A DNA stretch of 64,000 bases, taken from assembly GCA_964030785.1 (NCBI GenBank), contig OZ034971.1:48038578-48102577 (forward strand), written 5' to 3'. The position numbers and the translations under genes were made by a program. The notes under the pieces were generated by a model. That model was not told the DNA's origin. It worked only from the letters and a program-made list of their open reading frames with translations, and searched no databases. The first letter of the stretch is position 1. Every line of letters begins with the position of its first letter. This DNA is from Siderastrea siderea (lineage: Eukaryota > Cnidaria > Anthozoa > Scleractinia > Rhizangiidae). This document shows positions 40,701 through 46,700 of this stretch, in pieces.

Positions 40701-43700
40701 ACACTAGCATGGAACGTGTCCAAATAAATGGTGGAAATAAGCCTCTTCTGCGGAAATGTTTCTCTCGAGTTTTGGCTAGTAAATGGAATAGCTTTCTCAT
40801 AATTTAGTGGCTGTCTATATAAAGAACAAAGTGGAGATATCACACGTTACACAACAAATACAGAGAGCTGTAAAGCTGTGAGGCGCCTACGCACGAGGTC
40901 TTAAATTTAAGGGTGGTTGTGGTGGCCGTCTGAATAAAGCCATCTTTTTTCCCCTCCAAGTGACCCAATTCTTTGCTATTTCTAGCCACGCAACTGGCCC
41001 CTAGTAATCATATATCAACAAAATTAGTTAAAACAGGCAAATGAAAGCTCTAGTCAATTGAATGCGTAACAAGCACGGTACTAAATAACTATGGGCTGAA
41101 AACAGAATGGTCATTTCATAGCCTAGGACGATTTTCCTGAACAAACCTTCATTTTCAGGATGATCAACATAGATTGGCGTACCGGATCCTTCTTTGTCAT
41201 AAATGCCAGGAGCCCCACCACTGCCTTCGAACACGTTTGGAACTTGGCCCTGCAAAACACGAAGATGGATGATAAAGAAAAATCGCAAGGAGCAAGTGCT
41301 TATTTATTTGTTTATTTATTTTCGATACAACCACCTCTTGAAAGCTGTTGACCCCCACTGTGTTGGGCCCGTGGTGACAGCACTTGCGTCCCACTAGTAT
41401 GTCGCGAGGTGCAGACTCCGTATCATACTTGGAATGAGTTTCTTGTTGGTTCTTGTCTTGTTCTAAAGGACTGGCGTTCACACGACAAGCTTAAGTTTGC
41501 AAACTCAATTTGGCGTGTGTGAACATTGAAAAAACAGTTGACAAACATTCGAATTTGAGGTCATTTCTCGTCATTAAGCTTTCGATTCCATCACGCAGGA
41601 TCTTAAAGGGGTTTAAAGCTCCGGGCTCCGGCCTAAGAAATGCAGAGCGCCAGGGCTCCAAGAAGGAAAATTCAGGGCTCTAGGGCTCCGTTGCTTCACT
41701 CCAGGGCTCCATTTAGCCAAAAAGAGCAGTTTTGTTCGGGCTCCAAGTCAAGAGAGGCTTTGGGCTCGGGGCTCCAAGACAAAAATTTCAGAGCTCCAGG
41801 GCTCCAGGGCTCCAAAGCCCCCCCCCCCCCCCCCCCCTTGCGACTCTGATCAAGGAATCACGTCACGTGGCTAGGAATAGTGAAAATCACGTGACGAGAT
41901 GTCCAGGGAAACCGCTGAGAGCTCGTGACAAACTTGAGGGGGCAATATACGTAGATGCCTTCCCTCCCAACGTTTTAGCCTTTTTTCTTAATTATCTCCA
42001 TGAGATTTCATTCAATCCAAAACTGCTATCACAGGATCACAGTGCGAGCTCCCATAAATCTGAGAGCATTTTTTTTTTGCGATTTTTAAGTGAACGTAAA
42101 GAAAAAGAGGGGAGAGGAGAATGAATGATTTGCCACTAAACGGATTCCTCTGTTATGCGCAAAGGTTTCTGGGATCGCTAGGGGGCAAACGTTGCAAGTC
42201 GCTCGAAGGAAATGTATGGCGAAAAGTTGTTTTGACGTCCAAAAAGACGATTTTTGAAGGAGTTCGACGCTTTTTCGCCGCTATTTTATCAGAAATGGAT
42301 TTGGACCATGTTGGTACGTGGGAAGTGTAAGTTTTAGTTTGTATAACCTCGAAATATGTGATAAAATCTACCGATAAACGTGTTGCTTGCGTAAGATTAA
42401 TTGTGAAATTTTCATCGCGTAATGCTCTCGAAATATCATAGAAGTAGGTTTTAAATCGGCATGAATAGTTCAATAAACCTCTTTCAGTTGTATTTACATG
42501 TGTACAGGCTGTTTTCTTATTAGTAACGTCTTAAGCAAGAAATTATGGCTTCTGGAAATTTACCTCCTCAAAGGAGAGAAATTGTTGTCAGAGGAGATGG
42601 AAATTGTTTTTACCGAGCTATTGCTCTCTGGAGGGATGAAACGAGCGATAGGAAACATGAGGAAATCCGAAGGCTAAGTTCTAGTTTGATTGAGAAAAAT
42701 CCGAGGTTTTTGAGCCGCTTCTCTTCACTTCGAACTCTGTGGAGGAACATGTCAAGAACAGCAAGATCACGGGAACTTGGGCAGAAACTGTGGACATATT
42801 CAGTTGTGCATCAGGCGACCTATTTGTACCTTCTCAACAAAACTGAGAAAATGGTTCAGTTTTAAACCGATTGTCAACATTGATTCATTTTCTTCGATCA
42901 CAACAAAAAATCAGTGTAGTTGTCCAATCACTTTAATGTATTATGATGACTATTCTCAAGCAAACCATTTCAACCTCCTGCTGCCCCAAGGTAGCTGTAG
43001 TGCTCCTTTGCCTGAGAATACAGCATCCACTGTTTCAATAGATTTAGATAACAATGGGAATTCATATGCTGCGGCTGTTAAACAAAATTCACAAACTTGT
43101 CCTTCTGTCAAACTACCATCTCCAAGTACCAAAGCTACTGCATTCGGGGTTTTATAACCTTGCACAAAATGATTTGAGTAGACCTTTGTACTCTTTGTAA
43201 CTTTAAATTGATCACGATTTATAGCTCTGGCCCACGACAAAACATCTTTTTTACTCTTGGGCGAGTGGAATCTCAATATTCAAACGTGAGGAAGAATTTT
43301 TTGCTTCTCTGGGTACCTTCGATTGTTGTCACAACCCCACACAGCACAATGATCGCCACCAGGCATATTCCCGATATTATTTGTATTACTGAGTTCAAAG
43401 ATAACCAAAAAGCAGTCTGTACACACGTAGTTACAACTGAATAGGGTTTATTGACTTATTTTCTCCCGATTTATGCCTAACTTTGTGATATTTCGAGAGC
43501 ATTACGCGATGAAAATTTCACAATTAATCTTACGCAAGCAACACGTTTATCGGTAGATTTTATCACATATTTCGAGGTTATACAAACTAAAACTTACACT
43601 TCCCACGTACCAACATGGTCCAAATCCATTTCTGATAAAATAGCGGCGAAAAAGCGTCGAACTCCTTCAAAAATCGTCTTTTTGGACGTCAAAACAACTT

Positions 43701-46700
43701 TTCGCCATACATTTCCTTCGAGCGACTTGCAATGTTTGCCCCCCCCCCTAGCGATCCCAGAATCCTTTGCGCATAACAGAGGAATCCGATTAGTGGCAAA
43801 TCATTCATTGATGAATATTAAGAACATTGACAATTGTTAAGAATAAAGTAAATTAAAATTAAAATGTAAAGTTAATAATTAATAGATGGACATCAAAACA
43901 GTCCACAAACAACCCAAGTGCCCTTGCGTGGGGGTGGACTGTCTCTCTTTTATTTCTTTCTTAAATCTTATCCTATTTCCTTCCCTGCTAGCAGAGGCCC
44001 CTTTTCCTTTGTATTCGCTGAGCTGACGGGCGGGACGAAAAGGGACCTCTGCCATGGGTCGAAACTCCCTTTGATTCAACCGCCGTCCATGGTCGTGGAC
44101 GGCGGTTTCCGAAACGCATGCTCCCTGTATTGTTTGCTGACCGTGACTTGAGCCCACTGTATCTCGCGCATTCCTTTACAGTTATTCCGCTGTCATTTAG
44201 TGAGCCCGCATAGTAACATGCCGTCCTGGAAAGAAAACTAAACTCGTGAACAGTTACAACGTTTACTTTCTCTCGTTTTTGTTAACATGGACGACGGAAA
44301 GATAAAAAATCGAAACAAGAAGCTCTAAGGAACACTCAACAAGTTAAGCAATGGAATTTAGAGCTTTTAGAGCGAAGAAAACATCTCTCAAGGCGGAGGG
44401 CAATCTTCCATCTCCAAAGATTTTTTGCGCTGCGGACGTTCTGTGAAATGCTCCAGCACTTCTACGAGTCTACGGTAGAGTAAATTACACATTTGATTGT
44501 AAATTTGTATCGAAATCGCTTTTTAATTGAGGGATTCTTCATATTCCTTACAGTTTTCGTAAAAGTTTTGAAAAACGTGCACAGTTCGCATCACCAAATG
44601 CTCTTCAAAATAACTTGCACATCGAGCGAAATCGCTTGCGCGTAGCTTCCCTCGAAGAAAGAATTGAACGCGTTTGGTCTTCAAAAACAAGTAAAGGCGT
44701 GTTTTAATAAATGTATTATTTAGAAAAGCTTCCTTCTCTTCTTCTGTGTACCTTCATTCATAAAATTTCGAAAAGTAGTAATCTGACCTAAACAGACACA
44801 AATGCTCTGTTGTGGTTTGATTTCACGCGCGAGACAACATGAGAAATCTCTTGCGGGAATTTTCAAAATTTGGACTTTGAGATTGTATTTTTGGCTAATT
44901 CTTAATCGACAACTGGTGTATTTTATTTAAAAGTAAGAAATTTTAACTATTCTAGATCAAGTGAGCGTTGTTTTTTCGAACCTATAAATTGTCCTTTCGT
45001 ACTGCACATGGGTTGTTTATTACCAACTGCTAATGAAGCGATCAGAAAACACGCAGCCTTCAATGGGTTAAATTCTCTTTGATTCCTAGAGTTGTGGTCA
45101 TGTTAAAAAAAGCTTCCTTGTCCGATAACTTGAAATTAATACCGTAGATTAGACAACAACTATCTCTAGACGAACTGTCTACTTTTTTTAGGGTTTTGGT
45201 GAACTCGCCATTCACGACAACAAAACTGTGCAGGTGTTTTTTGGCGCGCTAGTTGAGAAAGGTGGGAGTCACCAGCTGATCACGTGCTAAAAACATCACG
45301 TGACGTTTCGGTCGCTAAGTATCCGTGGCGCATGCTCAACACAGTTCATTTCGACCCATGGCAGAGGTCCCTTTTCGTCCCGCCCGTCAGCTCAGCGAAT
45401 ACAAAGGAAAAGGGGCCTCTGCTAGCAGGGAACCTATTTCCTAAAATTCACGTATATTAATTCAATCACATCAAAAAGATACCGCGATGAAATCGAATGC
45501 TTGTTTGTCAGAATCAAGGTACAAAATCTCCACTAGTAGTTGACAATCATGTTCCCAAACTGTTGGTATCTACTAGCCTCTATTCTAGGAAATAGAGATT
45601 GATTTTGTGTGGGTGTTGAATTTGTCGCTGAATCGTTTGACGGATGTTCACTTTTAATTAACCAAACCTCGTCACGTGATTTACCCCAATTGCACAAAAT
45701 GACGTAGGTTAAAGTTGATTTCCAGTCCGTACTGCGCAGGCTCAACGGTTTGTTTTGGTTTTTTGTTTTGAAAAACTACTTACGTCATAAACAACTTTAT
45801 GAAATGTACCAATTCGTGACGTTTTGCATAAAGTGAAATTACAATTTTTGTCTCCCGCCATCATGGATGTGAGCTTTACTCTCAATGAAACTGAAAAGAG
45901 ACATTGAGGCGGCCACGCGGCCAAAACAAGATAACATCTCGGTATGTACATGTACTAGGTTTTGTTTACGGGAAACAGGAAGAAATGCCTGCCCGTGTCT
46001 TAGTGTCCAGCAGTTGCCATCGAGCACGAGGAACCGCAAGCTTGTGTGTGTTGCAGGAAGATTCTTCCGAAAATGACGAGGTATTTAAGTCTACTTTATT
46101 TTTCCCATGTGGAAAAATTTTCGTAAAACTGCACTCTATTTCATAATTTATATATGTTTTTTCCTTACATTCCATCATGTGAGGCTCACAAACACTTGTG
46201 GGCTGAGCATACGCAGTACGGACTGGAAATCAACGTTAACGAAGAACGCTGGACGACTTTTTAGTTTGTCGAACATCAATTTAACTCTTGAAAATAGAGC
46301 ATTTCTTCGGTAGAAGAAGGTCAAATAGAGGCTTATGAAAGCAAGTGCCACCAGACTGGGATTAAAACAGCAAAGGTCATGTTTTTAAACGTTTTGTCTT
46401 GTGAACGTGGGAGTTTGTCAATTTTCACATTCGCCAACATAAATTTGCAAGCTTAAGGTTGTCGTGGGGTACTCTTCACGCACATTCTCAACCAGTTTTC
46501 CGCCCTCCACCAAAATCAAAATTTAAAAACTCCACCTCGATCTACATAGAAAGGACTTCTTGAAAACCACCTCTATCAACGCACAAACTGGCTTTCATTT
46601 CGAATATATTAAAATTAAATCTTTTTAACTGGTCCGCCGAACCGCATCTGAAACCGTTAAAGCAACATGAATATAACAACGTCCTGACTGCTAGGTTTGA

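Follow-up and report, generated by a model that had tools for sequence, protein, structure and literature searches.

A probable deletion derivative of an ISL2EU transposon in Siderastrea siderea, from a lineage whose accessory protein carries an OTU domain

The DNA considered here is a 64,000-nucleotide window of the Siderastrea siderea genome (contig OZ034971.1), in which positions 42123-43806 are very probably what remains of an ISL2EU (PHIS/Harbinger-like) cut-and-paste transposon after an internal deletion, a dead copy that is non-autonomous. This explanation agrees best with the sequence comparisons, and the identity of the element as an ISL2EU derivative is nearly certain. A sequence-only reading of the same DNA had described inverted repeats of about 400 bp at 42120..43809, and its coordinates proved right to 3 nucleotides: the element proper is 42123-43806, and the wider interval adds the target letters A+AT on the left and AT+T on the right. 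The left terminal inverted repeat (about 397 bp, 42123..42519, forward strand) and the right one (about 401 bp, 43406..43806, reverse strand) were delimited by an inverted-repeat search, which returned 342 nucleotides at 92% plus 66 nucleotides at 97%, and by blastn, which aligned them at 93.3% identity over 402 columns. Because the blastn E value is 5e-171, a chance origin of the arms is excluded.

The interior preserves parts of two genes. On the forward strand, 42545..43073 corresponds to the OTU domain and the beginning of the linker of an accessory protein, as located by tblastn with residues 1-180 of the OTU of a relative (locus L014), and is now split over three frames (42545-42712, 42703-42813 and 42810-43073). 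The open reading frame (ORF) at 42545-42865 matches Peptidase_C65 (7.5e-4) and OTU (0.0069), both below the Pfam cut-offs, and the better-kept OTU of L014 scores 2e-10, above the cut-off; the OTU-like character proposed from the sequence was thus upheld, with a hidden Markov model match that is weak in the window fragment and firm in relatives. On the reverse strand, 43141..43366 is a remnant of the transposase THAP domain with one internal stop (87.7% over 81 amino acids by tblastn; Pfam THAP 0.0038, below the cut-off), the final residues of which lie beyond the deletion joint. The sequence-only reading had seen no transposase, which is correct for most of that protein but overlooked this remnant. 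The joint itself (43139..43141) juxtaposes positions 1044 and 4429 of another relative, L010, with which the window copy is colinear over 1-1044 and 4429-5093. The loss amounts to 3384 bp on the L010 scale and 3641 bp on the L014 scale and includes the YqaJ part of the accessory protein; no clear microhomology was found at the joint. The window copy codes for nothing whole and is an ordinary dead derivative.

Relatives were sought in the genome (831 Mb, 402 contigs) with a 1690-bp query, which gave 126 matching pieces; 40 of 97 candidates were scored, and the locus counts are accordingly lower bounds. The subfamily comprises at least 19 loci at 92% identity or more, the window included, and a sister subfamily at least 13 loci at about 70-77%. 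The arms are therefore repeated genome-wide rather than single-copy. Fetched for comparison were 18 other subfamily loci (L009-L025 and L027) and 13 sister loci (L026 and L028-L039). Two subfamily copies are nearly full-length: L014, which has 5254 bp and is missing the first 72 bp of its left arm, and L010, which has 5093 bp and is interrupted by a gap in the YqaJ part. Besides OTU, the forward-strand pieces of L014 match YqaJ (1.6e-9), and its reverse-strand pieces match THAP (2.2e-6), HTH_Tnp_4 (2.1e-9) and DDE_Tnp_4 (2.2e-32); L022 likewise matches DDE_Tnp_4 (2.8e-38) and THAP (5.5e-7). In its parental layout the element spans about 5.1-5.3 kb, is bounded by 400-bp inverted repeats and contains two genes that converge tail to tail, one for a transposase and one for an accessory protein. 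The latter runs from an N-terminal OTU through a low-complexity linker, a SAP-like part and a SWIM-like part to a YqaJ nuclease domain. Both the SAP-like and the SWIM-like part are shared in the protein alignment; the former reaches 1.2e-5 for Pfam SAP in an aligned relative, L090, and the latter we take to be such by eye, from its motif.

Such relatives, together with uninterrupted OTU-YqaJ proteins described below, support the earlier proposal of a non-autonomous derivative of an OTU-carrying transposon. Its companion claim, that the arms are kept better than the cargo, was not borne out: among 17 copies compared, counting only matches that cover at least 90% of a stretch, identity is 96.2% for the OTU stretch (6 copies), against 94.3% for the left arm (13 copies) and 96.6% for the right arm (14 copies). 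Other deletion copies are also present. L016, L021 and L023 have a common joint (863/4225), different from that of the window, which shows that a deletion copy multiplied, most simply by movement in trans. In the sister subfamily, L029-L039 are deletion copies of about 1.1 kb, most of which keep the first ~80 OTU residues, including the Cys motif, without the His part.

For the target site, the window flanks were joined over one AATT and searched against the genome. All 40 scored matches (of 599 candidates) cross the joint, at 83-87% identity, and the 12 best paralogous empty sites, which were fetched, read AATT in 10 cases, AATG in one and AAGT in one. The flanks of L011, joined in the same way, match over their whole length at 5 places (95-97%), with AATT in all five. 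It follows from these empty sites that the duplication is AT within A-AT-T, and the target duplication that the sequence-only reading had suggested looking for is thus seen in paralogous sites. Its copies in the window are 42121..42122, after the A at 42120, and 43807..43808, before the T at 43809. Ends were printed for 18 subfamily copies, and 10 of the 13 with both ends in view read AAT...ATT. The window copy landed in another dispersed repeat (flanks 42038-42119 and 43810-43909; at least 40 copies, 83-87%), and L011 sits inside a repeat with a reverse-transcriptase-like frame.

ISL2EU elements are described as animal transposons of about 5 kb with an AT duplication in A-AT-T, a THAP-HTH-DDE transposase ORF and a YqaJ ORF (PMC4482050; PMC9179366). 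The present lineage has the 2-bp AT duplication at this site, a THAP-HTH-DDE transposase in L014, L009 and L022, of which the window copy keeps only a piece of the THAP domain, and a second ORF with the YqaJ exonuclease domain.

The OTU domain of this lineage is a predicted deubiquitinase. Its fold and active-site motif match those of human OTUD3 and of further OTU enzymes with known structures, and all 10 of the aligned OTU-bearing proteins keep the catalytic Cys (DGNC) and His, P0002, P0004 and P0008 having been left out because their N-terminus is missing. P0001, P0005 and P0006 each combine OTU and YqaJ in a single open protein and score above the Pfam OTU cut-off, and uninterrupted OTU-YqaJ proteins of 940-1060 amino acids exist outside this genome. 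Selection on OTU codons was assessed from Nei-Gojobori counts as the ratio of nonsynonymous to synonymous divergence (dN/dS). Between L014 and the sister copy L026, dN is 0.136 and dS 1.18, a ratio of 0.116 over 179 codons; the sister-subfamily copies give 0.097-0.157 in 12 of 13 cases, values that share ancestry and are not independent, with dS near saturation. When the window copy is compared with L014, the ratio is 1.06 (178 codons), and the means are 0.69 within the subfamily (120 pairs, 16 sequences) and 0.79 among 12 sister copies (66 pairs), the last figure giving no sign that their OTU fragment works. This pattern fits a lineage that was under purifying selection during its active period and whose present copies are decaying.

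Elsewhere in the genome, at least 121 YqaJ matches (120 of 272 candidates scored) and 59 OTU matches (79 of 79 scored) were obtained. Besides the subfamily and L026, OTU and YqaJ occur together at two loci, L082, which also carries a DDE piece at 76%, and L083 (G000:C12:31366000-31374900), where gag/pol-like retroelement frames, recognized by eye, stand between the two parts as a nested insertion. No OTU was found in the YqaJ proteins L084-L088 and L090, as fetched. When L026 and L082-L090 were searched by tblastn, DDE was found in L082 and L088 only, in the latter beside the YqaJ protein, and THAP and HTH pieces in L026; its absence from L083-L087, L089 and L090 says little, the stretches being short. 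A tree of the SWIM-YqaJ region separates the OTU-type proteins from L084-L090 with a branch support of 0.993, and fits one gain of OTU; inside the OTU-type group, the records P0002, P0004, P0008, P0015, P0017 and P0018 are without a whole OTU.

A different protease occurs in another branch. The YqaJ proteins of L084 and L085 end in a C-terminal Ulp1 domain (Peptidase_C48, 9.5e-7 and 4.8e-6, respectively), and the locus L096, next to L084, holds a 522-amino-acid THAP-HTH-DDE frame (DDE_Tnp_4 1.2e-51, THAP 6.7e-11). From L096:1012 to L084 (G000:C2:37359811-37366357), this frame and a 1018-amino-acid SWIM-YqaJ-PHD-Ulp1 frame are both open, and a 20-bp inverted match, which has AT at the outer ends, encloses the two. 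Because it combines these frames with inverted ends and AT, the L096-L084 pair is an ISL2EU element with Ulp1. The 1018-amino-acid open frame occurs at five or more loci among the scored YqaJ matches, and relatives with YqaJ and Ulp1 among the matches listed include Acropora, Stylophora and Branchiostoma entries. The OTU lineage and L084/L096 are therefore two branches in which the accessory protein carries a deconjugating protease, a different one in each. Tentatively, ISL2EU accessory proteins may have separately gained an N-terminal OTU and a C-terminal Ulp1, the removal of ubiquitin or SUMO being a working part of transposition or of escape from host control; we regard this as conceivable rather than probable.

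A mechanism can be proposed in which the THAP part of the transposase would bind the arms and the DDE part would cut, excision followed by incomplete repair would give rise to deletion copies, and such copies would be moved in trans by full ones. The accessory protein would assist in the manner of the Myb-like protein of Harbinger, for which the transposase and Myb-like genes are both needed in vitro (PMC9179366); the function of the second ISL2EU ORF is called unknown in PMC4482050. OTU might act on the transposase, on the accessory protein or on chromatin or repair proteins close by, strip them of ubiquitin or of a ubiquitin-like protein and thereby promote transposition, and could in so doing protect or activate the complex or edit chromatin or repair proteins. 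DNA repair around transposition has been proposed as a role for transposon ubiquitin/SUMO proteases (PMC2836005). Among the steps of the mechanism, the role of OTU is the least certain, a suggestion that we hold with considerable doubt.

Two other accounts of the domain were weighed. It may be an ancient passenger of the lineage that does nothing for the transposon, given that OTU is missing from many YqaJ proteins of this genome (L086, L087, L088), so that it is dispensable for the group as a whole, and that OTU-fragment copies of the sister subfamily multiply without a full OTU. The purifying selection between subfamilies, the invariant Cys and His, and the presence of Ulp1, a deconjugating protease of another class, on the accessory protein in a different ISL2EU branch nevertheless make a passenger unlikely. 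It is also rather improbable that the substrate of OTU is not ubiquitin but the polyprotein-like accessory protein of the element itself, or that protein's partner: the N-terminal position ahead of a long, disordered-looking linker would suit such a protease, but the fold matches ubiquitin-specific OTU enzymes, and no cleavage site was seen, none having been looked for.

Viewed alone, the window shows arms flanking an OTU-like stretch, and the sequence-only reading had offered as its alternative a host OTU gene captured by this one non-autonomous transposon (transduplication). The location of OTU is constant, however, being N-terminal in the second ORF and adjoining the left arm in full-length subfamily copies, in the sister copy L026 and in L082, which is more distantly related. 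Given this position, the open OTU-YqaJ proteins and the dN/dS of 0.12 between subfamilies, capture was rejected, and we consider it extremely improbable. Since the window copy is a deletion derivative of OTU-bearing two-gene relatives, OTU is part of the element's own accessory protein.

Several observations weigh against assignment to ISL2EU and a two-gene, OTU-bearing parent. The arms measure 397/401 bp and start with GAATG, compared with reported ISL2EU arms of 6-259 bp that usually start with GG (PMC4482050); because that source gives a range and the word "usually", arm length and start do not exclude membership. Among the 13 two-ended copies, L018 ends a base early, and the flanks of L020 and L023 differ from AAT...ATT. 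The search for an intact parent was answered in part, in that near-full-length OTU-bearing relatives exist but no fetched copy has both genes open: frameshifts break both genes in all nine copies whose ORFs were listed, the remaining fetched copies being shorter deletion copies, and the subfamily's two-gene parent is assembled from frameshifted copies. Pfam finds neither SAP nor SWIM in L014 or P0001, both assignments resting on alignment and motif reading, and the sister copy L036 has a dN/dS of 0.41. Mutator-like elements have long arms, resembling the 400-bp arms here, which are unusual for ISL2EU, but the AT duplication and the THAP-HTH-DDE_Tnp_4 and YqaJ domains of colinear relatives contradict a miniature inverted-repeat transposable element or Mutator-like element unrelated to ISL2EU and leave it scarcely any probability.

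Other features lie near the element in the window. A second inverted repeat (43981-44064 / 45349-45432; 84 nucleotides, 100% complementary, 1284 nucleotides apart) probably marks another transposon beside this one, and a further inverted repeat of 37 nucleotides at 92% occupies 45708-45744 / 46204-46240, its arms 459 nucleotides apart. A degenerate repeat rich in GGGCTCCA, with a long C run at its end, extends over 41607-41838, and the reverse-strand ORF at 40145-40552, in which a thrombospondin type 1-like motif was noticed by eye, is probably a host-gene exon.

Proteases that act on ubiquitin or SUMO are encoded by more than one kind of DNA transposon. Ulp1 has been described in Mutator elements, OTU in Helitrons, and both in Ginger1, for which a role of the ubiquitin pathway in transposition was proposed (PMC2836005). 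For OTU or Ulp1 in ISL2EU, and for a Harbinger transposon with an ovarian tumor domain, no report was found in the open-licence literature; a Repbase or unpublished description of the ISL2EU cases is possible, and by word counts neither domain is mentioned in PMC4482050 and PMC9179366. In Ginger1, a Gypsy-integrase-like transposase carries the protease as a C-terminal fusion (PMC2836005), whereas here the transposase is of the DDE_Tnp_4 type with THAP and OTU lies on a separate accessory protein. OTU-bearing Helitrons and Helentrons are likewise mobile DNA with this domain (PMC2836005; PMC4067079). The window element has inverted arms and relatives with a DDE transposase, unlike Helitrons and Helentrons, which are rolling-circle elements without either. 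The cellular OTUD enzymes, similar in fold and active-site motif, are host proteins that are not mobile; those that match best in structure show 15-20% sequence identity. From ISL2EU as described, the lineage differs in the N-terminal OTU of its accessory protein. The window copy is only a dead pointer to the question why transposons have such proteases; with OTU in one lineage and Ulp1 in another, both on the accessory protein of a single transposon group, that question can be tested within one system.

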